A DNA stretch of 64,000 nt from Thermoguttaceae bacterium (GTDB taxonomy: Bacteria > Planctomycetota > Planctomycetia > Pirellulales > Thermoguttaceae): NCBI GenBank assembly GCA_025062105.1, contig JANXAQ010000061.1, positions 1-64,000 of the forward strand, given 5' to 3'. How positions within the stretch are numbered: position 1 is the first letter of the stretch; each line of letters begins with the position of its first letter. Positions 6,410-56,282 of this stretch are shown in pieces. Under the pieces are notes generated by a model that was given only the letters and a program-made list of their open reading frames with translations, did no database searches and was not told where the DNA came from. Made by a program: the position numbers and the translations under genes.

Positions 6410-6624
6410 CACTACCCCCTACATAGCACGGGCATCGCCCTTTTAGAAAAATCTAAAGCTCAGCTTTCGGGGAAAATCTCTGGAAACGCCACTTGCCATC
6501 TTTTGTAACTTCTTTTATTCCCTCGATATTTGGGCATTTTCCTTAACTACTTTGTCTCCAACAGTTAGTATGGATCTGCCTTTTATGCACCCAATTTTCT
6601 ATCTCGAAAAACGGCAACGGCTCA
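6410..6624. other. Spacer, nothing recognised
   Basis: AT-rich spacer between the mvhD-like gene and the first PR-B element. No hairpin terminator or reading frame is evident. Confidence 0.4.
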
Positions 6625-6783
6625 GAGGCTGTCCTGAAATTGGGATTTGGGTGGTTTCCCATGGGTTTTGGCCGACCGGCTCCTGCATTTCAGACTCCTT
6701 AAAAACAGGGATTTTGGGAATTCTGGAGCATTTGGGACGGAAACTTCCTTTCTTCATATCTTCATAATTTTTAGGACAACCTC
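6625..6783 (+). mobile_element. PR-B element with TCA target duplication
   Basis: Starts GAGGCTGTCCTGAAA and ends GGACAACCTC. TCA flanks it at 6622-6624 and 6784-6786. The internal block TTTCCCATGGGTTTTGGCC is shared with other forward PR-B copies (8420, 48643). No coding capacity. The next PR-A begins directly after the right TCA. Confidence 0.88.
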
Positions 6784-6786
6784 TCA

Positions 6787-6937
6787 GCTCGACTTTTGCC
6801 CATTTTTTCTAACGGCCTTTGCTTCCAGGAGTTACGACGCAAACTCTTTTTGTTCGCCTAATTTCCTAACTTTAATAGTTACAAGAAGTTAGAACTTTTC
6901 TCCTCCGGGAAGAAGCTAAAATTGGCAAAACTGCAGC
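6787..6937 (-). mobile_element. PR-A element with TCA target duplication
   Basis: Starts GCTCGACTTTTGCCC; the right end has decayed to GGCAAAACTGCAGC. TCA flanks it at 6784-6786 and 6938-6940. It shares one TCA with the PR-B to its left, so the two form a chain. Confidence 0.85.
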
Positions 6938-6993
6938 TCAGAGCGTTCCCCTCTGGGCAGGAAGCCCCAAGTGCAAAAAGTCGAGTAACAGCG

Positions 6994-18238: not shown

Positions 18239-19522
18239 ATGGACCGACGCGTGGTAATTACTGGTATTGGTTGGGTAACTCCATTAGGAGCGGACATTGA
18301 AGGCGTCTGGCAGGCGCTTTTGGAAGGACGATCTGGCGTCGATTATATCAGTCTATTCGACGCCAGCCATTTCCCTACTAAAATCGCTGCCGAAGTGCGT
18401 CATTGGTCGGTGGCCGATGTGGGAGAAGATCCCGAGGATTGGAAGCATCAAGGCCGACATACTCATTTTGCCGTCGGGGCTGCCAAAAAGGCGGTAGCCG
18501 ATTCTGGCATCTTCGACACCCGGCTGGACCCGACCCGATTTGGCGTCTATTTAGGCAGCGGGGAAGGCCAACAGGATTTTCATCGATTTAGCCAGATGAT
18601 GGTTGCCGCTCTAGAAGGAGGCCAATTTGATCTGGCTCGCTTTATGCGCAAAGGGCTGGAGGTGCTCCATCCGATCTCGGAGTTGGAGCAGGAGCCGAAC
18701 ATGCCTGCCGCCCATTTGGCCAGCTTGTTTGGTGCGGAAGGTCCGAATCTGAATTGTCTGACGGCTTGTGCAGCCAGTAGTCAGGCCATCGGGGAAGCCG
18801 CCGAAATCATCCGCCGCGACGAAGCCGACCTGATGTTGGCCGGGGGGACCCATTCGATGATCCACCCCTTTGGTCTGACCGGTTTTAATCTCCTGACCGC
18901 CCTGAGCACTCAGAATGAGCAGCCCACGAAGGCCTCCCGACCGTTCGACCGGCGCAGGGATGGATTTGTTCTGGGAGAAGGAGCTGCCATAGTGGTGCTG
19001 GAGGAGCTAGAACGGGCCAAACGCCGAGGGGCCAAAATTTACGGGGAACTAGTCGGATATGGTTCAACGGCGGATGCGTTTCGGATAACAGATGTTCATC
19101 CTGAAGGCCGTGGGGCTATCAGTTGCATGCGCATGGCCTTGCAGGACGCCCGCCTGGCCCCAGACCAGATTGACTACATCAACGCCCATGGCACCAGCAC
19201 CGCCATCAATGACCGAGTAGAAACCCTGGCGATTAAACAAGTTTTCGGCCAGCAGGCCTACCGAATCCCCGTCTCCAGCACAAAAAGCATGATGGGCCAC
19301 TTAATTGCTGCAGCTGGCGCTACGGAACTGATTATTTGTTTGCTCGCTCTTCGGGACCAAATCCTTCCGCCGACAATCAACTATGAAGAGCCGGACCCAG
19401 ACTGTGACCTAGACTATGTGCCCAATCAGGCCCGGCCGGCCCGTTGCCGGCGGGCTATGTCCAACAGCTTTGGTTTCGGAGGACAAAATATCACACTAAT
19501 CGTAGAGCGGTTCACCGGCTAA
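18239..19522 (+). CDS. fabF: 3-oxoacyl-ACP synthase, FabF type
   Basis: 427 residues from MDRRVVITGIGWVTPLG at 18239; an upstream in-frame start would add 56 unrelated residues. Thiolase-fold condensing enzyme with Cys at about 177 in LTACAASSQAIGEA and His at about 317 (NAHGTST) and 353 (KSMMGHLIAAAGA), the Cys-His-His triad of FabF. It extends acyl-ACP with malonyl-ACP. A long segment at about 125-150 (GLEVLHPISELEQEPNM) differs from E. coli FabF. It is last in the interrupted fab cluster. No strong ribosome binding site is visible before the start. Confidence 0.94.
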   Translation: MDRRVVITGIGWVTPLGADIEGVWQALLEGRSGVDYISLFDASHFPTKIAAEVRHWSVADVGEDPEDWKHQGRHTHFAVGAAKKAVADSGIFDTRLDPTRFGVYLGSGEGQQDFHRFSQMMVAALEGGQFDLARFMRKGLEVLHPISELEQEPNMPAAHLASLFGAEGPNLNCLTACAASSQAIGEAAEIIRRDEADLMLAGGTHSMIHPFGLTGFNLLTALSTQNEQPTKASRPFDRRRDGFVLGEGAAIVVLEELERAKRRGAKIYGELVGYGSTADAFRITDVHPEGRGAISCMRMALQDARLAPDQIDYINAHGTSTAINDRVETLAIKQVFGQQAYRIPVSSTKSMMGHLIAAAGATELIICLLALRDQILPPTINYEEPDPDCDLDYVPNQARPARCRRAMSNSFGFGGQNITLIVERFTG

Positions 19523-19644
19523 CCCGGCGGCCGCCACTGCCCATCCGGTAAAACAACCTACATCGAAGAACTCCCCTCCGATTTGCCCCGCTTATTTTCA
19601 TCTGACAACAATTCACCCAAAAGCAGCAATAGCCCCCCTCTAAA

Positions 19645-19745
19645 CTCGAGTTTTGTCGTTCTTATGCCTTTGTTTATCTCAAGGGGTTAGGGTTTGGGTA
19701 TTTTCGTTCATCAAATTTGTTAACGCCAATATTGTCAGTATGAAC
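19645..19745. repeat. Partial PR-A-like element
   Basis: CTCGAGTTTTGTCG at the left and an interior like that of the variant at 60717 (GGGGTTAGGGTTTGGG, GTTAACGCCAATATTGTCA). The right end is missing where the next PR-A begins. Confidence 0.5.
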
Positions 19746-19752
19746 CTCTACT

Positions 19753-19902
19753 TCTTGACTTTTGCCATTTTAGGCCTTCTGCCGGAAGGGGAAACCTCTA
19801 ACTGCTTGTAACTATTGGACTTAGGAAATTATATGAACAAAAGGAAGTTTCGTCCTAACTACTGGAAACAAAAGCAGTTAGGGAAAATGGCAAAGGTCGA
19901 GC
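19753..19902 (+). mobile_element. PR-A element beside the transposase relic
   Basis: Starts TCTTGACTTTTGCC and ends GGCAAAGGTCGAGC, followed by TAA. The left flank is no longer TAA. Its right end lies 12 bp before the first recognisable codon of the broken transposase, so it may have cut off the transposase N-terminus. Confidence 0.78.
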
Positions 19903-19913
19903 TAAGCAGGCAC

Positions 19914-20367
19914 TATCGTTGACACCACGCTCATCCAAGCTCCAGCGAGCCGAAAGAACCAAGAGGGAAAACCTTTGCTGGAAATGGGTTCCTTGAAAAA
20001 GGGCAATCCATGGTATTATCGAATGAAGGGGCATCCGGGGATGAAGGTATATAACAAAATTGTTCACTGAATAGAGGTTATCCCGGCTAATGTGCACGAT
20101 AGCCAAGGGATGGGACAACTTTTGCACGGGGATGAGAGAGCCGTTTATGGCGACAAGGCCTATGTGGGTCAAGAGCAGTCGATCCCAGCCATAGCGCCGG
20201 AGGCGGAGAGCTTTCTGTTGCATCGAGCTGCTTGGAATCATCTGCTCCAGTGCTGGCAGGAGAAGCTCAATCAGAGATGGAATTCGGTGCGTAGGGGGGT
20301 GGAAGATGTTTTTGGGGTGTTGATCGCGGGGTTTGGTTGGCGGCAGGTTCGGCTAAGCTGGGCATAG
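19914..20367 (+). pseudogene. IS5-family transposase remnant
   Basis: Translation from 19914 reads IVDTTLIQAPASRKNQEGK, then KKGNPWYYRMKGHPGMKV, a TGA at 20068-20070, then PANVHDSQ, AVYGDKAYVGQE and RRGVEDVFGVL...FGW, all in one frame. This is the middle and C-terminal part of the DDE domain of IS5/IS1106-like transposases. The N-terminal third is missing and the TGA stands where a Ser codon is usual (VHS-V). No terminal inverted repeats of the parent element are visible. It is inactive but shows that an IS5-family transposase once lived in this genome. Confidence 0.88.
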
Positions 20368-20705
20368 GAAGAAGGCCGGCGTAGGCGGTGATTGCCTGGG
20401 GGCCGCATCTAGCAGCATCGGCCTTGGCTACGGGAGGCTAGCCCTGGAAGCAATCCCAGACAGTCCACTGGTATGAACATTTTCAACAAGTATCGACATC
20501 TTTCCCTTGCATTGCCCCTTGCATTGGCGATTTTTCCCTACATTTGCGTTGGCTTTTGAGTCTCTGGATGCGGATAGTCCGGAACTTTGTTTTAGTGGAG
20601 GCGGCTGCCGATGCTCGCCGAGGGGCCAACTGGAACAAAAGAGGAAAACCACAAAAACCAGACAACCTGTCTGCCTGTCCTTTGCCGTTCTGAAAACGCA
20701 CCCTA

Positions 20706-20817
20706 AGGAAAAAAATAAGATAACGATAAAATTAGTCTAACATTTATTCAGAGGTTGCATAGGCAAATGCAAAATGGTTTCCGAAGCCACATCTTTCCTG
20801 ATTTTCAAATCATCCTT
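20706..20817 (+). repeat. Left part of a PR-F element broken by PR-C
   Basis: GATAAAATTAGTC, GGCAAATGC, GGTTTCCGAAGCCAC and TTTCCTGATTTTCAAATCATCC follow the PR-F interior. The sequence seems to continue after the PR-C with TTTTCTAAATACTGTCATTT at 21008. Confidence 0.55.
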
Positions 20818-21007
20818 GGAATCGCTGCAGAATCCTGAACACGTAGTGAACTTTGTGAACTTTTGATGCTCTAGCCGTTCGGTTGTCCTACCTAGAAAGC
20901 TACTATCTATTGGGTGCTAGCAATGCTGGTGCCCCTATATGTTGTGTTGGAAGGAGGAGAGGCCAAAATGGTATCAAAAGATCCCCTTTGACTGATGCAG
21001 AGGTTCC
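20818..21007 (+). mobile_element. PR-C element inside a PR-F copy
   Basis: Starts GGAATCGCTGCAGAAT and ends GATGCAGAGGTTCC. Core TACTATCTATTGGGTGC and GCTAGCAATGCTGG present. The flanks on each side are both PR-F interior, so this is a nested insertion. The duplication is unclear. Confidence 0.75.
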
Positions 21008-21417
21008 TTTTCTAAATACTGTCATTTCTTAGTAGTTCAAAGTCGGGTTGCCAGAAGAAAATAGTTCTAACCTTTTATTTTTTAAGGAGTTATATCACCT
21101 TCTCTTTATCCCTCCTTAAAGGGGGTGGACCAAAACCTGTTAGCTGTTCCGGCTGGGCTGGCCAGCCTCTGTGAGACGGATGGTCCAGCTGCTGCGATTC
21201 AGGCCCTAGAAGGGGACAGGGAAACTTTGTCCTAACATACTAACATTTTGAATAATCTTAAGTTAGGTTTAACTTCCGTCTTGCCAGGTCTTGGATATAC
21301 TCCGAAAGAGTTATTTTGGGGGCCTTCAGCTCTCGGATTTCTTCTGGGTGCTCTGGGAGGCCGGGGCAAAAACCACTTTTAAAAAAATTGTCTGGAAGGT
21401 TTTGGGCTGGGAGAAAG
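21008..21417. other. Unexplained gap sequence
   Basis: After a short PR-F-like start this has no feature I can name. A stretch at 21135-21215 is GC-rich and might be decayed coding DNA. Confidence 0.35.
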
Positions 21418-21606
21418 ATGCTTTTTCTAACTTCTTGTATCTTAAGGAGTTACAGATAAAGATTCTCCGTTCACTAGACTTTGAACTACTTTTTCTCCAA
21501 AGTAACCGTTGGGTTCTTTTGAAAAGTTTGTTCTCCCCGAATGTGGGGCTTCATTTTTTTCCGATGGGAATGGCAAATCCATCCCCAAAGCTGGGTATAA
21601 CAGCCA
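21418..21606 (+). repeat. Right part of a PR-F element
   Basis: CTCCAAAGTAACCGTTGG, TTTTGAAAAGTTTGTT, GATGGGAATGGCAAATCCAT and terminal GGGTATAACAGCCAAC match the right half of PR-F at 10361. Confidence 0.65.
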
Positions 21607-21696
21607 ACTGTTGGCGTCCCTGGAAGAGGGGAACAACAAGGCCATGGCGGTTGGCTGCAGGAGGTGGGCCTGTTTGAGGAGGCCGCAAGAGGGGAA

Positions 21697-23316
21697 TCAA
21701 CTGATGGTCACCCAATCAAGGCCGGCTTTACGCACCGCATACCCAGCCTCTCGCAAATATTCTCCATACACTAGGATCCAATGGAAACCTCGGATCTCCT
21801 CCAGCAGGCGTTGCCAATTGCCCTGGATGGCCAAATCCAACTGGGTGCGGCAGATGGGGTAGAAGGGGCTGTCCAAAATGCGGGCTTGGAAGCCGAGCCA
21901 ACGGCGCCCTTGAAAATCGGCATTGACTACGGTAACCGGCTGTCCTTTGCGCATTTCCACCTTGGTGGCTGCGCCGAAGTCGGATTCATAGTGGGTCAGC
22001 AGGCGAACTGGCTCCAGATGGCGGCCGTCCATGCGGCGGGGAGCAGTGCAATGGGAGACGGTCAGCACTGCCTGGTGGGGCCAGGAAGGATTGCATAAAA
22101 AGGCAGGCCGGTCGCCGATATAGCGCATCAGCACACCGGCCGGAATGGCCACAAAGTCCGATTCACAAAAAGCCAATAGTCCAGCGTCGTTCAGCAACGT
22201 GAGCGGCAGGCAGGCCGTTGTGCCCGATACCGGCATGATCGTCGTCATGCAAAGATTGATGGCGATGGCGTCGGTTTTGCTCTCTTCCAATAAGTCTAGG
22301 AAAATTTCGTTGAGCACAAAGGCACGGACCACGGATTCTTCCGGAATTTCTAAGCGGACGTCCGGCTGCCGGATATACTGCTGGGCCATGAGTTGGCAGG
22401 TTTGGAGGCGTTTGGGGTCTTTGAATGCGGCTTCGATCCGTTTGCCCAGATCGTCGTAGGAGACGGTAACATAATCGAATTTCCAGTTTTTCGTGGCGAT
22501 CTTGGGGGCTTCGGCGCCGTCGGCACCCCAACCGGCCGGGCCGCCGACACAGACAAACTTTTTGCCTAACGTATTCTTCAGTCCATATAACGCCCGAAGC
22601 CTCCATAAAAGCTCTTCATAATCGTCCACCACCACGTCATGGATGGTCATAGCTGGCTCGGCAAAAAAATCCCGGCGCTTGCGGAGATAATGGACATGGG
22701 CACCTATGTACATATAATAAAGGGGGCCGCTTTTATGGCGAACAAACATAAGATTCCATCGTTCCGGACGAGCTAGGGCCTCAAGCACCGGTACATTCCG
22801 GCGTGCTGCATAAATGAGCATCACATCGAAGTCCCCTTGGCTGGCAGCTTGGGCCTGCTCGACCGTTTCCACACGTACTAACGGCAGCATTTCTAGTCCG
22901 AAATCTGCCTTTTTCGCAAGTTCTGCCAACTCTGCTCGAATATGAGCTTCTTCTTGCTGGATTTCGGCTTCGTCGATAATCGCACCGGTAGTGCGCCAGC
23001 TGGTCTGAGGTTTGCGCTGGTAAGGATGGCAATTAAAGACGGGTTGGACGCGGAGGGGTTTTTTGATCGGCTGAGCCCGAAGCGGCGGGAAAGCCGCTGC
23101 GGCCGCTTGTTCCGCGAAAAGCCCCCGAGCCGCTGCGCCCACTCCAACCGCTCCGAGCACACCTGCCACACCCAGAAACTCCCGGCGGGAAAACTCAGTC
23201 CCGCTGGAACAACTATCCTGCAGACTCCGGCAGCCGCAGCAACCCACTTCCGAAACGGTCTCCAAACTGCTGGTCTCTTGAAACCACCCGTACTCTGGCA
23301 AAATCTTTTCGCCCAT
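21697..23316 (-). CDS. Tat-exported protein, possible sugar-isomerase-like fold
   Basis: 539 residues. SRREFLG at 43-49 followed by a hydrophobic Ala/Gly/Val stretch to about 63 is a clear twin-arginine signal; the 42 residues before it, with Cys26, 27 and 29, are unusual. The mature part has alternating helices and strands with a C-terminal section (CNPSWPHQAVLTVSHCTAPRRMDG) that reminds me of fucose/arabinose-isomerase C-terminal domains known in planctomycete Tat proteins. I cannot confirm catalytic residues. AGGAGA lies about 9 bp before the ATG. It stands alone, convergent with the sequence to its left, between two repeat-rich gaps. Confidence 0.75.
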   Translation of the reverse strand: MGEKILPEYGWFQETSSLETVSEVGCCGCRSLQDSCSSGTEFSRREFLGVAGVLGAVGVGAAARGLFAEQAAAAAFPPLRAQPIKKPLRVQPVFNCHPYQRKPQTSWRTTGAIIDEAEIQQEEAHIRAELAELAKKADFGLEMLPLVRVETVEQAQAASQGDFDVMLIYAARRNVPVLEALARPERWNLMFVRHKSGPLYYMYIGAHVHYLRKRRDFFAEPAMTIHDVVVDDYEELLWRLRALYGLKNTLGKKFVCVGGPAGWGADGAEAPKIATKNWKFDYVTVSYDDLGKRIEAAFKDPKRLQTCQLMAQQYIRQPDVRLEIPEESVVRAFVLNEIFLDLLEESKTDAIAINLCMTTIMPVSGTTACLPLTLLNDAGLLAFCESDFVAIPAGVLMRYIGDRPAFLCNPSWPHQAVLTVSHCTAPRRMDGRHLEPVRLLTHYESDFGAATKVEMRKGQPVTVVNADFQGRRWLGFQARILDSPFYPICRTQLDLAIQGNWQRLLEEIRGFHWILVYGEYLREAGYAVRKAGLDWVTIS

Positions 23317-24254
23317 GTTTGCTTTCTCCTGATGGTCCAGTGCCTACTTTGGGAAACACATAATAGAGCAATATATTATATACTCTGGCAGCAAGACCGC
23401 TCGGGCAACGCCGCTAAAAAACGGGGATACCACATCCAACTGCCGAATCATTCTGCAAGGTACTAGCCCTAGTCAATCGGCAAGAGGTGGACGGACTTTT
23501 TTATGGTCCGTTTAGGAAGCTGAGGAAGCTAGTCTCTAGTTTCGTCCCGGCACCTCTGTCTGGCATCTTGGGGAACAAAAAGTCTGTATTAGAGCCAGGG
23601 AGTATGAGTTTCTGTAGAGGAGTTTAGGTGCTCATCTCAGGGATAAAATGGGTAGGGGCAGTGGAAAGGTGGATTTCCGGCAGGTAGGCTTCTTGTGCCT
23701 ATAAGTGCCTATAAGATTCTGCTTGCCCAATTGAACTACCCAGCCGCCCCCTCCTCCATAAAGGGGACTTTTCCAAGATAATTCCATAACAGTTTCGCGG
23801 AAAGGAGCGGGCCACGTTTTTTCCTGTCTGTGTCCGCTGCTGGAAGGGGGTTTAGACGAGGGGAAGGAGGGAAAAGCCGACATACCTTTTGGCCCCCGCA
23901 GCCGGGGTTGGTAAAGTCAACGCCGGCATCTTCCACGGAACACAGGGGCGGTTCTTCACTTAGTGGTAGTTTCTGGAGAGTTCCTCTTTATGGGGTTAAC
24001 TTGCCTTGGGAGCGGGTTGGCTTTAGCGCCGGCCAGCTAGGCCCTTGCCGATGCCAAGCATCCTAACTTGTTAGAACGCCATTGGAAAGCCATAAGTTAC
24101 AGGAGCCATTTTGGAAAGGTATACAGCCATAGCCTAGAAATTGGAAACGGTCTCCAGGAATGGGCGAGCTGGTTGGGCTGGCTCAATAGCCTCTGCTCGT
24201 GAAGAGTAAATTTTGCAGACAGTACCGTTCAGTTAGCGGAAAAGTTACTATATT
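23317..24254. other. Gap between the Tat protein and the monooxygenase
   Basis: No gene supported. CATAAAGGGGACTTTT at about 23757-23772 recurs at about 54206-54221 (CATAAAGGGGACTTTTGG), hinting at a further low-copy repeat. CTATAAGTGC-type short duplications occur near 23699-23716. Confidence 0.4.
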
Positions 24255-24318
24255 GGTTATAGGCAGAAGGAATCAAAATAGTATAAAAATATCTCCGTCG
24301 AATTCATGTAGAGTTTCC
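24255..24318 (-). repeat. PR-C right-half fragment
   Basis: CAAAATAGTATAAAAATATCTCC, split here as an 18-bp core plus GTCGAATTCATGTAGAG, matches the terminal third of PR-C. The rest is missing. Confidence 0.5.
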
Positions 24319-24321
24319 GGA

Positions 24322-24470
24322 AACTCGAGGTTTGCCACTGTTGCCTCCGCCAAGAGGGGAAAATTCTAACCCCGGTATCTATTAGAGTTAGGAATGGTGG
24401 GGACGATAGGAGGTTTGGTTATAAGATTGGAAGCAAAAGCGAGGCGATTAGGAAAAATGGAAAAGTCAAC
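24322..24470 (+). repeat. Decayed PR-A element
   Basis: CTCGAGGTTTGCC at the left, GAGTTAGGAATGGTGGGGAC in the middle and AAAAATGGAAAAGTCAAC at the right are diverged PR-A features. Confidence 0.55.
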
Positions 24471-24546
24471 AGAAAGGTACTCCTCGGCTGGAGCAATCCA
24501 CTTGAAGTAAGAGGACATTGAACCGCTTAATAGGAGGTCTGTTGCT

Positions 24547-24882
24547 ATGGAGCCGATCGTGGTGTGTGTCTATGTCCATGTAAAATCGGAATATCGGGAA
24601 GCCTTTTTGCAGGCGACTTTGGAAAACGCTCAGTGCACTATTCAGGAACCGGGCAACCTGCGATTTGATGTGCTTCAGCAGGCCGACGATCCGGATCGGT
24701 TTATCCTGTATGAAGTTTGGCGGGATGAGGCGGGCATGAATGCCCACAAGGATACCCCCCACTATGCCAAATGGAGGGATACGGTTGGCCCTTGGATGGC
24801 GGAACCCAGGCGGGGAGTGCGACACATTGGTCGTTTTCCAACCGAACCGGTCGCTTGGTTGGCCCGAAAATCGGCCGAGTGA
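24547..24882 (+). CDS. Antibiotic-biosynthesis-monooxygenase (ABM) domain protein
   Basis: 111 residues, a single ABM/LsrG-like ferredoxin-fold domain. It has the usual pattern: VVCVYVHVKSEYREAFLQ, then EPGNLRFDVLQQADDPDRFILYEVWRD, then a helix containing TPHYAKW. Such proteins are dimers that oxygenate quinone-like substrates or act as isomerases (LsrG); the substrate cannot be read from sequence. A perfect AGGAGG lies 8 bp before the ATG. There is no operon partner; the next gene is 500 bp away. Confidence 0.9.
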   Translation: MEPIVVCVYVHVKSEYREAFLQATLENAQCTIQEPGNLRFDVLQQADDPDRFILYEVWRDEAGMNAHKDTPHYAKWRDTVGPWMAEPRRGVRHIGRFPTEPVAWLARKSAE

Positions 24883-25382
24883 GCTCCTGGAAGACTTTGC
24901 TGCCTTTAAGCAGATGGCCCCATAGGAGAACTCAGGCAGAGTGAAGATACTACCAACAGAGTAATTTTAACTACACTACAGTGGGGAAAAAGAAAAGGCT
25001 CCCGACGGCGGTACCCCCCCTCTGGAACTATATTTTGGACTATTTTCCCACCTATTTTGGGGGCAGTTTGGTTTACCATGTCAGATGTTTGACATTTAAG
25101 TTTACTTCTAGTAAGGTGGAAAATAGATATTTCTAGCTGGGTTGGGTCCATGGAAAATAGCGGGGGATTTCCTTTGCGGGCTTTCTAAGTCGGCAGGGAA
25201 GGCCTTCCAATTAGGTGCTGAGGTAGTTGGGGAAAGGGCCGGGCATTTTCCTATCCTCCCAAGGCGAACTACCCCCCTTTTGGCAGAGGGCTTACCAGTG
25301 CTGTCAGGCCCTCAGAGGGGGGAATCTGTATTGCCTTAAATGAGCGTAGATCGGGGGTTTTTGAGTCAAAGCGAGGTGTTGC
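24883..25382. other. Gap without recognised features
   Basis: 500 bp between the monooxygenase gene and the giant TPR gene. I see no repeat of the named families, no hairpin with a T-tract, and no gene. Confidence 0.45.
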
Positions 25383-28300
25383 ATGACGTCAGATGCTCCT
25401 GAAGTGCCGCCTATGGAAAATCTTCCAGCGGAGCCTCCGGTGGCTTCAGAGCAGTCGGAGGGGGTTTCTTCAGCTGGAGGGGGTAGTGGGGATGGGCAAT
25501 CAGTTTCCATGGCCGGGCAAGAGGCAAGGCCACCGGTGGTTTCTGGGCCGTCGGTGCCGGAGAAGGAGGGACTGCTGAAGACAGTGCTCAAGGTGGCTGC
25601 TGGGTTGGGGCCGAAGCGGTCTCCGGAGGAGATAGCTTTGGAGGAGGCGGAGAAGCGGGCCGAGGCGTTTGCCAAGGAGGCCTTACGTGCGTCGCAGGCG
25701 GCCATAGCGGCCCGGGAGCGTGCTCGGAAGGCGGCTGAAGAGGCGGCCGAAGAGGCGCGGAAGGCGGTGGAAGCAGCTGAGGCGGCGAAGGCAGCATTGA
25801 AAGATGTTCATGCGGCGCGGTTGGCGGTTGCTGCGCGGCGGGCTGCGGATCGGGCTGCTGCGTTGGCGGCCGAAGCTGCAGCGCGGGAGGCGGCTGAGGA
25901 GGCGGCAAGGGAGGCGGCCGCTCGAGCAGCGGAAATAGCAGCCCAGCAGGCGGCAGCCCGCGAAGCGGCCCAACGGGCAGCCGAGCAAGCCGCTTTAGAA
26001 GCGGCCCAACGGGCGGCCCGCCAGCAAGCCGAACTGGCAGCCCAAGAGGCGGCCCTTCGGGCAGCCCAACAGGCCGCTCAGGAAGCCAGCCGACAGGCCG
26101 CTCTGGAAGCCGCACAGCGAGCAGCTCGAGAAGCGGAGCTGGCCCGTCGGGCCGAGGCGGATCGAAAGGCCCGGGCCATTCGGGCGGCCAAAGCCGCCAA
26201 AGCAGCACGAGCCGCCAAAGCAGCACGGTTGGCCCAACGTGCCGCCGAACGCACCGGCCTAGAATACCGACCTGCCAAACGCTTAAACCTGAAAGTGGCT
26301 CTTGGCGTGCCAATTACCGTGGCCGTGCTCGCCGTTGCCGTGGTGGTTGTCCATGCATTCCAAGTCAGTCGCACGGCCGAGCTGATGCTCGCCAAGGCGG
26401 AAGAGGCTGAACAAAAAGGCAACAAAGAAGAGGCCATTCGATTCTATACGCACTATGTCAATTATGTGCCGAAGGATTATGCGGCGTACAGTCGGCTAGC
26501 GTTATTGGTGGCGGATCGGATTCGGCCCACCAGCCATCCTCGCCTGCTACTGGAAGCATTTCATGTTCTGGACCGGGCAGCCCAACAGGATCCAGAAAAC
26601 ATGGAAGTTCTCCGGCGATTGGCGGATATAGCACAGCGGCTTGGACGATGGCAACAGGCGGCCAACCATTGGCAACGGCTCCTGGAACGATTCCCGAAAG
26701 ATTCCGAGGTTGGCCTTCGATTGGGGCAGTGCCAGATCCAGATGGAAAAATATCGGGAGGCATTAGCTACCTTTGAACACGTTATTGCGCGAGATCCGGA
26801 ACATTTGCCTGCCTACGTCGCCTTGGCGGATCTGTTACGGGAAAAGTTGCAAGACCCCGATCGAGCAGATTCCTGGATCAACCAGATGGTGGCTCGCAAT
26901 CCGAAGTCCGTCAAAGCGTTTGTGGAACGGGCTAAATATTTCCATCGGTCTAAGCAACTGAATGCGGCCAGCGAAGACATCCGCAGAGCCTTGGAAATGC
27001 AGCCGCAAAATGTCGAGGTGCTAGTAACGGCTGCTGAGTTTGCCATCGACAACAAGGCCTACGAAGAAGCTAGCGATTATCTGGATCGGGCACAGGCCTT
27101 GCATCCGGAAGACGAATCCGTACAGCGGGCCCGGATGGTGCTGAACCTTTCGTTAGGCAAGACGGCCGAAGTTTTGGAACCGCTAGAGAAACGGATTCGA
27201 GAAGAGCAGTCGGCCGACGCCATGGATTTGCTCACAGTGGCCGACTTGCACCTGAAAAATGGCGATCTGAAAAAGGCCCGCGAAGCCATCAAAAAGATGC
27301 AACAGGCTGGCTTCCGGGAAGAGATCCTGGAGTTTTTTGAAGCTCGTGCTGAAGTGGCCGCGGGCAATTGGCGTAAAGCCACCTTCATGTTAGAGCGGCT
27401 TCGGGCAAAGGTAGCTGGCTGGCCGGAATTCCTTACCCATGTGGATCTGTTGCTAGGGGCCTGCTATGAGCAACTGCGATTGCCGGACCGGCAACTGGTC
27501 ATTTATCGTGGGCTGTTGGACCGGAACCCGAGCCTGCAACCAGCCCAAGCTGGGTATGCCGTGGCATTGTTCCGGTTAGGGAAACTGGACGAGGCGGCAC
27601 GGGAGTTTGCTGCCTTAGAAAAGGCTATGGGCGACGAATTCCTGCAAACTCCCGCTTTGCGAAATGTCCTGTTCCAGTTGATTGTCGCCCGCATCTTGCA
27701 ACAGCCGGAAAAGGCCAGGGATTGGTCGGAGCTGGAAAAATATGTGGAACGGCTTTCCAAAGTCGAAGGTGTGGACGCCGCCCAATTCACTTTGATGCAG
27801 GCGGAGGTGCTATCCAGAAAAGGGGACAATGCCAAGGCCCAACAACTGGTCCAGGCTCAGTTGGAAAAGTTTCCGAAGGATGTGGGCTTGTGGACAGCGG
27901 CGGTCAAACTGGCTGCAATGTTGCAGACGCCGCAGGAGGCCCTTCGCCTGGCCCAGCAGGCCAAAACTGCTTGTGGGGATGATGTAACGCTTCGGCTTAC
28001 CATGGCGGAACTGGCCCTGCAACTTCCGGCTGAGGAAGCAGCGAAACAATTGGAAGCATTGGGCGTTGGGACCGAGGAGTTTTCCGAATTTGAGAAGGTT
28101 CGGCTCTGGCGAGGTCTTGGAGCCTGCTGGTATCGGCTTCGAGACCGCCAGAAGGCCTACCAGTACTGGCAGCAAGTGGCTCAGTCGCCGCTTCGGGATC
28201 CACAGATTTTCTTAGTGCTTTTTGAATTAGCCCGGGAAAGCGAAGATGAATCTCGGATGAAAGAAGCTCTGAAGATGATAAACGAATATTTAGGTAGCCA

Positions 28301-30512
28301 ATCTACCGAAGCCGCCTATTGCGAGGCCTCGTTGATGGTCTGGCGAGCCCAACGCGGACAACTGGATAAAAAAGCCCTGATCGAGGCCAAACAACGACTT
28401 CGCCAAGCTGGCCTGGAGCGTCCTGGTTGGCATGAGATTCCTCGGCTGGAAGCGGAAATTGCCCTGCTGGAAAACAAACCGGATGAAGCCATCACCCTCC
28501 TCCGCAAGGCAGCCGACTTAGGCCCATTAAGCCCTGTTCATGCCGGTCAATTGGTCCAACTGCTTTTTAGCCGAGGTCGCTATGAAGAGGCCCGAGAGGT
28601 GATCCAACGTCTTGGGCCAGCCGCTCAGACCTTCTTATTCCTCAAGCGCATCGAAGCCGAAATCAATCTCCGGTTAGGCGATTTTCCGCAGGCGTTGGCC
28701 AAAGCCGCAGAAGCTGTGCAAAATTCCACTAACCCCGGCGATTTCCTTTGGTACGGGGAACTACTGGCCCGAAACCGACGCTTTGACGACGCTATCCAGC
28801 AATTCCGCAAAGCAGTGCAACTGGATCCGAAAATCCCCCAAGGGTGGATTGCCTTGGTGGCCGTTCTGACGGAAACCAACCAAAAAGAAGAGGCCCTTCG
28901 AACGATTCGGCAAGCCCAGGCCAGTCTGCCGGAAGATGAAGTGCCGCTGGCTCTAGCACAGTGTTACCATCTGGTCGGCGATTTGAGCAAAGCGGAACAA
29001 TATTATCTAACGGCCCTGCAGCAAGCCCCAGAGAATCTGGGCGTGCTCCGGGCCGTAGCACGCTTCTATATGTTTACTGGCCAAAGCGAAGAGGCCAAAC
29101 GCTATCTGGTACAGGTACTGACGCTGGCGGGCCGGGAACCCGAAAAACATCGTCGGGAACTGATCGAAGGCAGGCGATTGCTGGCCCGAGTCTTGGCCGC
29201 CGAGGGGGATTGGCGGCAGGTTCAGCAGGCACTAGCCCTATTGGATCGAAACGCCGAAGGCGGCAGTCTGTCCGTCGAGGACCTGAAGTTGAAGATCGCC
29301 ATCTTGGCCTCCCGCCCGGATCGATCCAGCCGACTCAAGGCCATTGAACTGCTAGAAAAAGTACGTTCTGAAAATCAACAATCGTTCACTCCACATGATC
29401 TGTTCACTCTAGCACAACTCTATGAACAAACCAATCAGTGGGTAGTTGCTCAAGGTCTCCTGCGAGAACTGGTCCTGAAAAACCCCAAAGAACCTCAGTT
29501 CCTGGCTGGTTATGTCCAGCTGATGCTCAAACATGATGCCCCCCTCAATGCGGTGGAAGTGAACATAGGCCGGCTGGAACAACTGGCTCCGGAAGCTCCG
29601 TTTACCAAGATCCTTCGAGCTCGGCTGATGCTGAAAAAAGGGCAAACCACTGAAGCAATCGGCTTGCTCAAATCGTTGCTGCCCGCCCAACTTCTGCCTG
29701 AACACGTCCGATATCTGCCCCAGTTGGTTTCGGTTCTGGAAGAGGCTGGCCAGATTCAACCCGCCAAACAGCTCCTGGAAGGCTATGCCGACCAACAACC
29801 CGGCGCCCGATTGGTATTGGCCAATTTCATAGGCAAACACGGCAGCTGGCAAGAAGCCCTGGCCCATGTAGAAAAACTCTTGCCTCAGCACCCCCCAGCC
29901 GCGATCTTGCCGCGAGTGATCGCCATCTTGACCGAACAGCGCAAAAAAGGGCCCCTGCCCCCCGAAGTCTTCCAGAAAGTCCGGCCCTGGTTTATTCAAG
30001 CGGCCGAAGAGGCTCCCAACTCAAAAACCATTCAATTGCACTTGGCCTCCTTAGCCGACCTGCAAGAAGATTACGCAGAACAAATCCGCATCTACCGAGA
30101 ATTCCTCCGACGAGAAGACCTGCGGGATCGGGAAAAGGCCATTGTCTGGAATAACTTGGCTTTCTTGCTAGCGGCCGAAGGCAAACAGCCCGATGAAGCC
30201 CTTCGACTGATCGACCATGCCATTGAAATCCTCGGCCCGGTCCCAGAACTGCTGGATACACGGGCTGTGGCCTTGTTGGCAGCTGGTAAACCCCAGGAAG
30301 CTCTAGAGGTTTTAAACCAGGCCCTTCAGGACGCCCCTTCCGGCATCATGTATTTCCATCGAGCCTTAGTGTATCAGGCATTAAAAGACATGCGTTCTGC
30401 AGCCGCCGACCTCCAACGGGCCCATGAAAACTATCAGCTTACCTACGACCAAGTGCCTAAAATCGAACGCAACGCCTATAACAAACTCTTGGCCGCCCTA
30501 AAATCTCTATGA
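25383..30512 (+). CDS. Giant membrane TPR protein with Ala-rich cytoplasmic domain
   Basis: 1709 residues. Residues 1-70 are a Pro/Ser/Gly-rich linker. About 75-295 are an extreme Ala/Glu/Arg-rich helix (runs such as AAREAAARAAEIAAQQAAAR) ending in a Lys/Ala/Arg segment (RAAKAAKAARAAKAARLAQ). A single membrane helix follows at about 303-325. From about 330 to the end there are many tetratricopeptide repeats (for example EEAIRFYTHYVNYVPKDYAAYSRLA and REALATFEHVIARDPEHLPAYVALA). With the basic part before the helix, the positive-inside rule puts the Ala-rich domain in the cytoplasm and the TPRs outside it. A scaffold role is inferred. A start at 25383 has GAGGTG upstream. Only a PR-A separates it from dprA. 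Confidence 0.88.
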   Translation: MTSDAPEVPPMENLPAEPPVASEQSEGVSSAGGGSGDGQSVSMAGQEARPPVVSGPSVPEKEGLLKTVLKVAAGLGPKRSPEEIALEEAEKRAEAFAKEALRASQAAIAARERARKAAEEAAEEARKAVEAAEAAKAALKDVHAARLAVAARRAADRAAALAAEAAAREAAEEAAREAAARAAEIAAQQAAAREAAQRAAEQAALEAAQRAARQQAELAAQEAALRAAQQAAQEASRQAALEAAQRAAREAELARRAEADRKARAIRAAKAAKAARAAKAARLAQRAAERTGLEYRPAKRLNLKVALGVPITVAVLAVAVVVVHAFQVSRTAELMLAKAEEAEQKGNKEEAIRFYTHYVNYVPKDYAAYSRLALLVADRIRPTSHPRLLLEAFHVLDRAAQQDPENMEVLRRLADIAQRLGRWQQAANHWQRLLERFPKDSEVGLRLGQCQIQMEKYREALATFEHVIARDPEHLPAYVALADLLREKLQDPDRADSWINQMVARNPKSVKAFVERAKYFHRSKQLNAASEDIRRALEMQPQNVEVLVTAAEFAIDNKAYEEASDYLDRAQALHPEDESVQRARMVLNLSLGKTAEVLEPLEKRIREEQSADAMDLLTVADLHLKNGDLKKAREAIKKMQQAGFREEILEFFEARAEVAAGNWRKATFMLERLRAKVAGWPEFLTHVDLLLGACYEQLRLPDRQLVIYRGLLDRNPSLQPAQAGYAVALFRLGKLDEAAREFAALEKAMGDEFLQTPALRNVLFQLIVARILQQPEKARDWSELEKYVERLSKVEGVDAAQFTLMQAEVLSRKGDNAKAQQLVQAQLEKFPKDVGLWTAAVKLAAMLQTPQEALRLAQQAKTACGDDVTLRLTMAELALQLPAEEAAKQLEALGVGTEEFSEFEKVRLWRGLGACWYRLRDRQKAYQYWQQVAQSPLRDPQIFLVLFELARESEDESRMKEALKMINEYLGSQSTEAAYCEASLMVWRAQRGQLDKKALIEAKQRLRQAGLERPGWHEIPRLEAEIALLENKPDEAITLLRKAADLGPLSPVHAGQLVQLLFSRGRYEEAREVIQRLGPAAQTFLFLKRIEAEINLRLGDFPQALAKAAEAVQNSTNPGDFLWYGELLARNRRFDDAIQQFRKAVQLDPKIPQGWIALVAVLTETNQKEEALRTIRQAQASLPEDEVPLALAQCYHLVGDLSKAEQYYLTALQQAPENLGVLRAVARFYMFTGQSEEAKRYLVQVLTLAGREPEKHRRELIEGRRLLARVLAAEGDWRQVQQALALLDRNAEGGSLSVEDLKLKIAILASRPDRSSRLKAIELLEKVRSENQQSFTPHDLFTLAQLYEQTNQWVVAQGLLRELVLKNPKEPQFLAGYVQLMLKHDAPLNAVEVNIGRLEQLAPEAPFTKILRARLMLKKGQTTEAIGLLKSLLPAQLLPEHVRYLPQLVSVLEEAGQIQPAKQLLEGYADQQPGARLVLANFIGKHGSWQEALAHVEKLLPQHPPAAILPRVIAILTEQRKKGPLPPEVFQKVRPWFIQAAEEAPNSKTIQLHLASLADLQEDYAEQIRIYREFLRREDLRDREKAIVWNNLAFLLAAEGKQPDEALRLIDHAIEILGPVPELLDTRAVALLAAGKPQEALEVLNQALQDAPSGIMYFHRALVYQALKDMRSAAADLQRAHENYQLTYDQVPKIERNAYNKLLAALKSL

Positions 30513-30530
30513 CCGACATTATCCCATTAG

Positions 30531-30680
30531 GCTCGACTTTTGCCCTTTTGGACCTTCTGCTGAAAGGGGAAATCTTTACTTGCTTGCAATTGTTGGAGTT
30601 AGGAAATTCGATGGACGAAAAAGGGATTCGTGGTAATGCTTAGCGACCAAACAAGTTAGGGAAAAATGGCAAAAGTCGAA
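30531..30680 (+). mobile_element. PR-A element between the TPR gene and dprA
   Basis: Starts GCTCGACTTTTGCCC and ends AATGGCAAAAGTCGA. It begins 19 bp after the TPR stop. Flanks TAG and AGT show no clear TNA pair. Confidence 0.82.
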
Positions 30681-30742
30681 GTGTCGCTGTGTCCGAGCAA
30701 AGAAGGAGTTAGATTGTCTGCAGAGCAGGAGGCCTGGCAGCG

Positions 30743-31945
30743 ATGAACTCTCAGGAAGCCAAACAAGTAGACTGCGTTTCTGAGCAGCCTGAGCTTCTCC
30801 AGCCGAATCCCAACGCCCTGAATCAGGCCACCCAAACGGCGCCGCTGCCTGAACTGCTAGATGAGTTGGCTTTGGCATTGGTGCCGGGCGTAGGTCCCCG
30901 CACCCGACTGAAGCTGCTGGAATATTTTGGGTCGGTAAAGGCGGTCTTAGAAGCTTCGGCTGCGGAACTGCAACAAGTTCCGGATGTCGGCCCGAAATTG
31001 GCCTTGGCGATTCGATCGGCGGAGGATCGCTCGAAAGCCCAACAGGTCTGGTCGATCTGCCGTCAACACGGGATTCAAGTGCTTTGCCAAACAGATCCGG
31101 AGTATCCGGAGCTACTAAAACAGATTGCGGATCCGCCGGCGGTGCTTTTTGTTCGGGGTGAGCTTTTGCCCAGGGATCAACTGGCCATTGCCATTGTGGG
31201 CACTCGGCATCCGAGCTTGTATGGGCTTCGGCAGGCGGAGCGGCTCGCTGGAAGTTTAGCCCGAGCGGGGCTAACGATTATCAGCGGATTAGCCAGAGGC
31301 ATCGATGCGGCGGCGCATCGAGGTGCTTTGGCTGCAGGTGGACGTACCCTAGCAGTACTGGCCAATGGAGTCATTGATATTTATCCACCTGAACATAAAA
31401 ACCTAGCTGAGCAAATCATTGCCCACGGAGCTTTGCTTAGCGAAACCCCGCCGGGTACCCAACCGCTAGCCGGTATGTTTCCCCAGCGAAATCGGCTGAT
31501 CAGCGGACTTGCCCTGGGAGTGTTGGTCGTGGAAGCCCCGCATCGGTCCGGTGCATTGATCACTGCCCGCCATGCCCTGGAACAAAATCGAGAGGTTTTT
31601 GCAGTGCCTGGCCGAATCGATGAACCCACCAGCCACGGCTGCCATCAACTAATCCGGGACGGTGCCAAACTGGTCGAATCGGCCGAGGATATCCTGGAAG
31701 AATTAGGCCCCCTGGTGCAGCCGACGGTGCGAGAAGACGGTCGGCCAATCCGGCACCCGGCCGAACTGCTGCTCAATCCTACCGAAGAAGCGGTCCTGCA
31801 GGCCATTGGCACCGACCCAACTGACATCGACCAGATCGTTCGCACCACCGGTCTGCCAGTACCCAGGGTACTGGCCTCGATCAGTGTGTTGGAAATGCGG
31901 CATTTAGTTCGGCGCCTTAGCGGCAGTAGCGTAGTCCGCCGGTAA
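30743..31945 (+). CDS. dprA: DNA-processing protein DprA
   Basis: 400 residues. Helix-hairpin-helix-like N-terminus (VPGVGPRTRLKLLEYFGS, VPDVGPKLALAI), a DprA/Smf Rossmann core with IAIVGTRHPS, GLTIISGLARGIDAAAHRGAL, GRTLAVLANGVIDIYPPEH and MFPQRNRLISGLALGVLVVEA, and a C-terminal winged-helix (about 340-395). DprA protects incoming single-stranded DNA and loads RecA during natural transformation. AGGAGG stands 11 bp before the ATG. No other competence genes are in the window. The presence of DprA fits a genome that acquires DNA, but it is widespread. Confidence 0.95.
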   Translation: MNSQEAKQVDCVSEQPELLQPNPNALNQATQTAPLPELLDELALALVPGVGPRTRLKLLEYFGSVKAVLEASAAELQQVPDVGPKLALAIRSAEDRSKAQQVWSICRQHGIQVLCQTDPEYPELLKQIADPPAVLFVRGELLPRDQLAIAIVGTRHPSLYGLRQAERLAGSLARAGLTIISGLARGIDAAAHRGALAAGGRTLAVLANGVIDIYPPEHKNLAEQIIAHGALLSETPPGTQPLAGMFPQRNRLISGLALGVLVVEAPHRSGALITARHALEQNREVFAVPGRIDEPTSHGCHQLIRDGAKLVESAEDILEELGPLVQPTVREDGRPIRHPAELLLNPTEEAVLQAIGTDPTDIDQIVRTTGLPVPRVLASISVLEMRHLVRRLSGSSVVRR

Positions 31946-33011: not shown

Positions 33012-33223
33012 TTTAGTTATTTTGAGCGTGGCTGTGGCTAAAATTCTGTATAGGCAAAATAAGCCTAATACCTGCAAATCCCGGCTTTGTACAGCACCTA
33101 ACCGTTTTCCTGATATAAAACCCTAACCTCCTTTCAAAAACTCATATTACCTGGCATCTGGAATGCAGCCCCCAAGTTTCTTATAGATTCCCGCACTCTG
33201 TTGAAAGGTTGCCCGCCGACTGA

Positions 33224-33378
33224 GAGTCTGTCCAAAAAAAGCATTTTCTATGAGGAGAGGAGGTTGCCTGCCTCAATCCCCCAGAATCCAATTCCAGTTG
33301 TTAAGGAGTGCGGAGGATAGGAGCCGGTCGGCCAAAACCCATGGGAAACCAGCCAAATCCCCATTTTAGGATAGTCTC
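33224..33378 (-). mobile_element. PR-B element nested in PR-D
   Basis: Starts GAGTCTGTCCAAAAA and ends TTTTAGGATAGTCTC. TGA at 33221-33223 and 33379-33381. Confidence 0.9.
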
Positions 33379-33381
33379 TGA

Positions 33382-33531
33382 ACTCGACTTTTGCCATTTT
33401 TGGCGTTCCCCCGAAAGGAGAAAACTCTAACTCCTTGTAACTATTGGAGTTAGGAAATTGGATGAACAAAAGAGAGTTTCGTCGTAACTGCTGATGGCAA
33501 AACCAGTTAGGAAAAATGGCAAAACTCGAGC
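33382..33531 (+). mobile_element. PR-A element nested in PR-D
   Basis: Starts ACTCGACTTTTGCCATTTT and ends GGCAAAACTCGAGC. TGA at 33379-33381 and 33532-33534. Confidence 0.9.
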
Positions 33532-33676
33532 TGAGAAGGTTTTGCCCAAATACGGGTCGGTTTTGCTGGAGTTTTTGGGGGTTTAGGCCTCCGGTAGGAA
33601 AGGGTTTTAACAAAGCCAGATTCCCGCACAAAGCAGTTCGATTGGACTGGAATATCTATCTTCCCTATCCTCATAA

Positions 33677-45693: not shown

Positions 45694-45822
45694 ACCGACC
45701 AATTTTCTCCTCAGCATAGGGGTAAGTAGAATGCTAGTGGGACTTTGCCCATTTCTAGGGATCACTCTCTCTATTCAACAGAGTGGTGGCCTGGTACGGG
45801 AGTGAGTTTTTCGCATTTCTAA

Positions 45823-45931
45823 GCGTGACTTTTGCCATTTTTGTAAATTCTTTTATTTCAAGGAGTCAATATCTTCAAAGGGTTAGAAAATCCAAAGGGG
45901 GCTGACCCCTGGAAATTGTCAAAAGTTGAGC
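45823..45931 (+). mobile_element. Short PR-A variant, first of a three-element chain
   Basis: Starts GCGTGACTTTTGCC and ends TGTCAAAAGTTGAGC, 109 bp, with an interior unlike normal PR-A. TAA at 45820-45822 and 45932-45934. Confidence 0.82.
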
Positions 45932-45934
45932 TAA

Positions 45935-46090
45935 GAAGCTGTCCTAAAAACATTTTCTATGATGAAAGGAAGTTTCCTTCCTCAATGCCCCAGAATCCCC
46001 AAAATTCCTGTTGTTAAGGAGTGCGGAGGGTAGGAACCGGTCGGCCAAAACCCATTGGAAACCGCCCAAACCCAATTTCAGGATAGCCTC
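45935..46090 (-). mobile_element. PR-B element, second of the chain
   Basis: Starts GAAGCTGTCCTAAAA and ends TTTCAGGATAGCCTC. TAA at 45932-45934 and 46091-46093. Confidence 0.88.
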
Positions 46091-46093
46091 TAA

Positions 46094-46240
46094 GTTCGAC
46101 TTTCGCCATTTTTCCTAAGTTGTTTTGTATCCAGGAGTTACGTGGCACCCCTTTACCGACCCATTTTCCTAAGTGCAATAATGCCAAGCAGTCAGGGCTC
46201 TCTCCGTTCGCCAGAAGGCCCCACATAGCAAAACTCAAGC
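46094..46240 (-). mobile_element. PR-A element, third of the chain
   Basis: Starts GTTCGACTTTCGCC and ends TAGCAAAACTCAAGC. TAA at 46091-46093 and 46241-46243. Confidence 0.87.
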
Positions 46241-46293
46241 TAAGAAGCTCTTCTTGTGGTGAAGGGTCCTCAGCCCAATCCGCCGATAGGCGC

Positions 46294-48477: not shown

Positions 48478-48480
48478 TAA

Positions 48481-48639
48481 GCTCGACAAGCTCGACTTTT
48501 GCCATTTTTAGCTTCCTCCCGGAGCGGAAAAGTTCTAAGTTCTTGTAACTATTGGACTTAGGAAATTCGGTGAACAAAAGGATGTTTCGGCGTAACTCTT
48601 AGAAGCAAAAGCAGTTAGGAAAAATGGCAAAAGTCGAGC
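48481..48639 (+). mobile_element. PR-A element with partly duplicated left end
   Basis: The left end is GCTCGACAA followed by a full GCTCGACTTTTGCCATTTT, so 9 bp of the terminus are doubled. It ends GGCAAAAGTCGAGC. TAA at left and TTA at right. First of a PR-A/PR-B/PR-A chain. Confidence 0.82.
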
Positions 48640-48642
48640 TTA

Positions 48643-48800
48643 GAGGTTGTCCTGACATTGGGATTTGGGCGGTTTCCCATGGGTTTTGGCCGACCGGCTC
48701 CTACCGTTCCGACTCCTTAAAAACAGGGATTTTGGTGATTCTAGGGCATTGAGGAAGGAAACCTCCTTTCATCATAGACAATGCTTTTTAGCACAGCCTC
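48643..48800 (+). mobile_element. PR-B element in chain
   Basis: Starts GAGGTTGTCCTGACA and ends TTTAGCACAGCCTC. TTA at 48640-48642, TAA at 48801-48803. Confidence 0.83.
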
Positions 48801-48803
48801 TAA

Positions 48804-48952
48804 GCTCGACTTTTGCCAATTTAGGCTTTCTCCCGGAAGGGGAAAACTATAAGTCCTTGTAACTATTGGACTTAGGAAATTGTGTGAACAAAAGGGGGCT
48901 CGTCGTAACTAACGGAAACAAAAGGAGTTAGGGAAAATGGCAAAAGTCGACC
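48804..48952 (+). mobile_element. PR-A element with TAA target duplication
   Basis: Starts GCTCGACTTTTGCCAATTT and ends GGCAAAAGTCGACC. TAA at 48801-48803 and 48953-48955. Confidence 0.88.
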
Positions 48953-49095
48953 TAAGGAAGAATTCCTTTTGGGAAATAGTATAACCTGAGAGGGAGAAAA
49001 GACAGATTAGAGAATATTAGTACACTAAAAACTTGCCCCTCCATCTCTCAGCGCGGAGCTCCAAGAGGTTTTCCGATTGCCTGAATTCGGGCTGG

Positions 49096-55977: not shown

Positions 55978-56125
55978 ACTCGACTTTTGCCTTTTTTCCT
56001 AAGTTATTTTGATTCCAGGAGTTACGGCAAACCTCCTTTTGTCCACACAATTCCCTAACTCTAATAAAGTCAAGGAATTAGAACTTTCCCCGTTTGCTAA
56101 GAAGCCCAAAATCACAAAAGTCAAG
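55978..56125 (-). mobile_element. PR-A element
   Basis: Starts ACTCGACTTTTGCC and ends ATCACAAAAGTCAAGC; TAA follows. The left flank is GAG, so one side has mutated. Confidence 0.78.
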
Positions 56126-56128
56126 CTA

Positions 56129-56282
56129 AGAGGCTGGCTAAAAAGAGTTTTGGCTCACTGGGCTCTCAAGTTCTTCCCCCATCAGGAGGGGTTAGAGCTC
56201 AGGAATTGCGCACCTTAGCTTCCAAGAGCCTTCCTCGCCGTGGGAAAAGGAACATAGGCCATCTCTCTTTTCAGACAACCTC
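56129..56282 (-). mobile_element. Diverged PR-B element with TAA target duplication
   Basis: Starts GAGGCTGGCTAAAAAG and ends TTTTCAGACAACCTC. TAA at 56126-56128 and 56283-56285. A further PR-B end (TTTTAAGACAGCCTC) at 56296-56310 is an extra fragment. Confidence 0.72.

Follow-up and report, generated by a model that had tools for sequence, protein, structure and literature searches.

End-to-end arrays of short transposons are best known from plants. The SaTar arrays of guayule and rice consist of non-autonomous MULEs, in which unrelated short elements are joined as end-to-end multimers with none interrupting another, and in 2018 their authors regarded such an architecture as undescribed in prokaryotes (PMC5907723). 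MITEs in tandem arrays are also found among the coral CMITEs (PMC2872659). In bacteria, the transposase of IS30 favors transposon ends besides a nearly palindromic hot spot (PMC9333248), and some IS elements target REP palindromes, such that another repeated palindrome serves as the landing site (PMC1525189). No direct precedent for an end-to-end joining of bacterial MITEs was found in the literature searched. Here, we describe bacterial chains in which MITEs of different families abut one another across a single shared TNA trinucleotide. The chains probably arise in an ordered process of two steps: MITEs of one family, B, arrive first, and those of an unrelated family, A, then dock on them.

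Structure of the chains

The window, by which we mean the whole stretch of DNA analyzed, corresponds to the first 64 kb of contig C273 in a genome of 6.07 Mb and 345 contigs (G000), some of which end within A copies (e.g., C325). The host belongs to the Planctomycetota, probably to the Pirellulales/Thermoguttaceae. Statistics were based on 1.73 Mb of sampled contigs, supplemented by pattern counts over the whole genome. A preliminary description of the window had reported three elements chained by four TAA words at 45820-46243, and the arrangement TAA-A-TAA-B-TAA-A-TAA was confirmed base for base. Its parts, read from the sequence and listed without strand, are as follows.

45820..45822, TAA, target duplication at the left end of the chain
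45823..45931, A-type MITE, shortened copy of 109 bp, ends GCGTGACTTTTGCC ... CAAAAGTTGAGC
45932..45934, TAA common to A and B
45935..46090, B-type MITE, 156 bp, ends GAAGCTGTCCTAAAA ... TTTCAGGATAGCCTC
46091..46093, TAA common to B and A
46094..46240, A-type MITE, 147 bp, ends GTTCGACTTTCGCC ... CAAAACTCAAGC
46241..46243, TAA, target duplication at the right end of the chain

The anatomy, the 3-bp duplications, and the sharing of one TNA between neighbors are thus observed directly. The target of this chain is reconstructed as TTTC-TAA-GAAG, which fits YTC-TNA-GAR, and the B copy (45935..46090) was probably the first arrival. In a sister species (G001), a region of 38 kb is collinear with the window, and the gap at this locus measures 321 bp there, compared to 710 bp in the window. 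The exact empty site in G001 is only suggested, by a CATGCTGAGCAG word that aligns near CATTTCTAAGAAG, a reading limited by intergenic divergence. The other chains in the window, again without strand, are the following.

6625..6937, B-A chain, TCA words at 6622, 6784, and 6938
33224..33531, B-A chain, TGA words
48490..48952, A-B-A chain, words CAA/TTA/TAA/TAA
51700..52012, B-A chain, words TTG/TTA/TTA
55978..56282, A-B chain, right-hand words TAA/TAA

The first two had been reported at 6622-6940, with TCA throughout, and at 33221-33534, with TGA throughout, and both are as stated. The chain reported at 48478-48955 is real, but its words are not a single one repeated.

Other features of the window were also recorded. 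The RNA of a typical A copy (48490-48639) is predicted to form a long hairpin (z -5.4), but the two A copies of the 45820-46243 chain do not fold strongly (z -1.7 and +1.5), and we therefore assign A no function at the RNA level. A unit of ~69 bp occurs four times at 769-1367, each with TTTTGTAAAATCTTGGTTAAT and at a spacing of 167-192 bp, adjoining a 755-aa ORF on the minus strand. An Rfam scan of the window returned no match.

Identity of the elements

The four MITE families A, B, C, and D make up ~24.5% of the noncoding DNA in the 1.73-Mb sample. Element A (ends GCTCGACTTTTGCCATTTT; median length, 150 bp) has the properties of a MITE, being short (~150 bp), noncoding, and bounded by terminal inverted repeats and a target duplication. 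Its ends were found 1145 + 1126 = 2271 times in the whole G000 genome at ≤2 mismatches, with 0 in the control. The genome holds about a thousand A copies, which documents a bacterial MITE burst. At ≤1 mismatch, the whole genomes of G000, G001, and G002 contain 1392, 5, and 0 A ends, respectively, and the burst is therefore nearly absent from the two sister species.

An autonomous element with the same ends as the A MITEs is present as one intact copy in G000 (contig C130), about 1613 bp long and with an open frame. Its transposase scores 252 bits against the IS701 family model NF049999 (cut-off, 170), those of copies from two other genomes reach 299.8 and 247.5 bits, and the catalytic D, D, and E columns are invariant across the three IS701-type sequences. 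Copies with A ends and related transposases in other Planctomycetota measure 1485 bp (L086) and 1490 bp (L095), inside the IS701 length range of 1400-1550 bp, which the G000 copy exceeds. The single intact transposase of G000 presumably moved the A MITEs. The A duplication is a 3-bp TNA, as the preliminary description had proposed: excising A where it is nested in C elements leaves exactly one TNA (L148, L153, and L040), and the sequences flanking A in other genomes point to the same duplication. Members of the IS701 family generate a 4-bp target duplication (PMC2266710), and A is accordingly filed as IS701-type rather than as a standard member because it duplicates the 3-bp TNA instead. The intact element itself lies in a chain (L118), in the order D-like MITE, TTA, element, TAA; a C-like end is located one base past this TAA, and beyond the next A copy lies a decayed B-type IS.

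Element B (ends GAGGCTGTC[CT]; median length, 157 bp) is a putative IS5-type, IS1031-like MITE. The IS1031 group duplicates TNA, and the TNA words on both sides are identical in 41/74 paired B copies. In G001, contig C22 carries an IS5-type element of ~1.0 kb with B ends, a TGA duplication, and a broken reading frame. Its two ORF pieces score 69.8 and 53.3 bits against NF033580, for which the cut-off of 110 bits refers to the whole protein, and the element also matches DUF4096 (76 bits; cut-off, 34.3) and DDE_Tnp_1 (44.7 bits; cut-off, 23). An intact IS5-type source of B was not found in G000: matches to PF01609 and PF13586 are mostly broken, none of those inspected is bounded by B ends, and pairs of B ends 0.7-2.6 kb apart enclose no long ORF. 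It appears that B was moved by an IS5-type enzyme that is now lost or broken. An IS5-like element on contig C51 (L073, 1252-2300; ends GAGCGTGTTTGA; TTA duplication) is possibly a relative of the lost source. The ends of family C (GGAACCTCTG) delimit an IS5-type element (L068, 668-2247, contig C56) that carries an ORF of 343 aa, is flanked by ATA on either side, and is likely the source of the C MITEs.

Junction counts and independence of insertions

In the 1.73-Mb sample, facing ends exactly 3 bp apart were found for A-B (128), A-D (21), A-C (17), A-A (9), and B-B (2). The 177 cases at 3 bp for all families compare with an average of 1.5 per bp across gaps of 41-400 bp, a spike far above the random background. 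Junction patterns over the whole genome yielded 249 + 278 = 527 A-B cases and 39 A-A cases, with 0 in the reversed-pattern control, although palindromic A-A and B-B junctions could be lost from the short-read assembly and may be undercounted. These counts bear on the possibility that both families inserted widely and piled up in the few intergenic places that tolerate insertions. All four families are mostly intergenic and the intergenic space of the window is inflated, as this account would have it, but it predicts a spread of distances and as many A-A contacts as A-B contacts. Given the spike at exactly 3 bp, landing-zone survivorship is a very unlikely explanation of the chains.

The A-B contacts are distributed over the four end combinations in the ratio 14:13:11:11, and no pair of chains has both flanks alike. 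Because the end combinations are equally common and no two chains share both flanks, each junction represents a separate insertion. The N of TNA varies from one chain to another but is the same throughout most individual chains, and all three TNAs of a pair (far side of A, junction, and far side of B) are identical in 43/57 pairs. The recurrence of the A-B-A order in several chains might suggest that whole chains were multiplied, either through segmental duplication or in the form of composite A-B-A transposons. Such copying is refuted as the main route, and highly improbable, by the equal end combinations, the differing flanks, and the variation of N between chains; moreover, B copies with A at both ends number 10, against 16.4 expected if the ends were independent. 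Segmental duplication of whole clusters, which the preliminary description had named as an outcome that would refute its own model, does not account for the chains.

Target choice of A and B

Solitary A copies occupy TNA followed outwards by G, A, and A/G (TNAGAR). The occupancy of noncoding TNA sites by A rises with the fit to this target, on a curve that is partly circular because the matrix was built from the same copies. In other Planctomycetota, TNA follows A ends in 64/68 cases and is then followed by G in 47/64. Solitary B prefers C-TNA-G, including all three (3/3) full-length B MITEs read in G001, a genome nearly without A. The anticipated preference of solitary copies for C-TNA-G is therefore borne out for both A and B, also in other Planctomycetota.

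The ends of the families start with GAG (B and D), GGA (C), or GCT (A). Among TNA-bearing ends, A occupies 84/236 (36%) of B ends, 13/45 (29%) of D ends, 6/71 (8.5%) of C ends, and 6/448 (1.3%) of A ends, in step with the fit of each end to the A target. In a looser count, A was located at 13/575 (2.3%) of A ends, compared to 41% of GAGG-bearing B ends. This target word does not suffice by itself, since B ends still exceed non-element sites when both half-sites are matched: the occupied fractions are 22/35 versus 3/22 for GAR/GAR and 26/81 versus 9/359 for GAR/G. B ends in G000 are occupied 5-20 fold above matched sites elsewhere. Survivorship may account for part of this excess, as places that took B tolerate insertions, but with A ends as the permissive control this effect covers perhaps only about 2-3 fold. 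The excess points either to an A transposase that recognizes a longer portion of the partner end or to survivorship stronger than this control suggests; some of the attraction exerted by B ends lies outside the local target word.

Order of arrival and chain growth

Under the ordered docking that we consider probable, B (an IS5-type MITE; ends GAGGCTGTC...GACAGCCTC) would first enter C-TNA-G and duplicate the TNA. A (an IS701-type MITE; ends GCTCGACTTTTGCC) would then enter one of the two TNA copies of B, because the GAGG end of B completes the palindrome YTC-TNA-GAR that A prefers, and would pick the side of B whose outer half-site fits too. The new junction would present the GCTC end of A, and the chain would usually stop at A-B or A-B-A because this exposed end is a poor A target.

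If A arrived second, the flank past A should have been chosen by A, and the flank past B should not. GAR forms the outer half-site in 24/57 cases on the A side and in 4/52 on the far side of B (Fisher 5e-5). When the two sides of the same B were compared as a pair, the A side was the better match to the A preference in 28/35 (Wilcoxon p=1.7e-4). The comparison is not circular because the copies that defined the preference were solitary, whereas those tested were chained. The order bias is thus observed on the outer half-sites, whose fit on the A side argues that B came first and A second. A copies beside B are also more alike, and hence younger, than solitary A copies (p=8e-9), while B copies beside A do not differ in similarity (age) from solitary B. 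Against the model, B does not look older than A overall by nearest-neighbor identity.

The reverse order, in which A came first and B docked later on its TNA, is decidedly unlikely. A begins with G and ends with C and so offers B its C-TNA-G, and the adjacency counts by themselves are symmetric. However, the A target signature is present on the far side of A and missing on the far side of B (base A at +5, 0.25, besides the scarcity of GAR), B would be required to favor the worse side, and the A copies beside B are the younger ones.

The number of elements per chain bears on how the chains grow. The 718 chains comprise 571 single, 129 double, 17 triple, and 1 quadruple, such that only 18/718 contain more than two elements. 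In the model of the preliminary description, every insertion recreates C-TNA-G, and clusters extend end to end without a fixed order. The C-TNA-G preference is real for both families, and some A-A junctions exist, several of them beside an A-B junction (B-A-A). Nevertheless, A-A junctions are far fewer than A-B junctions although A ends are more numerous, A is seldom found at A ends compared with GAGG-bearing B ends, and the chains are short. The self-regenerating target does not hold for A, and the model is mostly refuted and unlikely as a general account; regeneration exists but is weak.

Gene sparing and comparison with sister species

The mean ORF overlap is 7.6% for solitary A and 12.9% for chained A. 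Solitary copies are therefore as intergenic as chained ones, and the earlier proposal that chaining explains the sparing of genes did not hold up. TCTNAGA sites outside elements number 93 in coding and 97 in noncoding DNA; since they are about equally common in both, the loss of harmful insertions would be the simpler cause.

Intergenic gaps total 10.8 kb in G001 and 35.9 kb in the window, or 10.4 kb and 24.5 kb, respectively, without one 11-kb interval. This interval (19521-30831), which corresponds to a 376-bp gap at the same place in G001, holds ORFs 21697-23316 and a 1709-aa TPR protein. An A copy is located near either edge (19753-19902 and 30531-30681), with outer duplications that do not match. 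A broken DDE_Tnp_1 transposase remnant (19906-20355) begins directly after the TAA following an A copy.

Generality and comparison with known systems

In two other Planctomycetota, MAS4.bin39 and BP7.bin26, A abuts different MITEs (GGAACCGGGC..., GGGGCTGTC..., and GGGCCTGTA...) across exactly one TNA, and the same TNA is found on the far side of the partner MITE at four loci (L089, L111, L107, and L097). The partner ends in these genomes start with GGG or GGA, not GAR, which counts against the model. The Planctomycetota IS701-type transposase might recognize IS5-type ends as landing pads by sequence or structure beyond TNA-GAR, a suggestion that we make tentatively. If it is true, one mobile family lives on the insertions of another across the phylum.

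The chains indicate that one mobile DNA family can become the landing pad of another, and they show a route to mixed, non-nested transposon chains in bacteria, with internal controls for order and independence. They also provide a natural setting in which transposase target choice can be measured by sequence alone, over hundreds of replicate events, and they serve as a warning that clustered transposons need not imply self-targeting or duplication.

The closest described systems differ from these chains in several respects. SaTar elements are plant Mutator-like, are aimed at microsatellites, and form many joins without a normal duplication (PMC5907723), whereas the bacterial IS5- and IS701-type MITEs described here share a 3-bp TNA duplication and show order. 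IS30 targets its own ends via IR-IR junction intermediates (PMC9333248), whereas here the ends of another family are targeted and own ends are disfavored. The REPs targeted by IS elements are short extragenic palindromes (PMC1525189), while in the present chains a second MITE supplies the landing site in the form of its target duplication. Finally, the coral CMITEs are one MITE group in an animal (PMC2872659), whereas the chains described here mix families and include little self-array formation.
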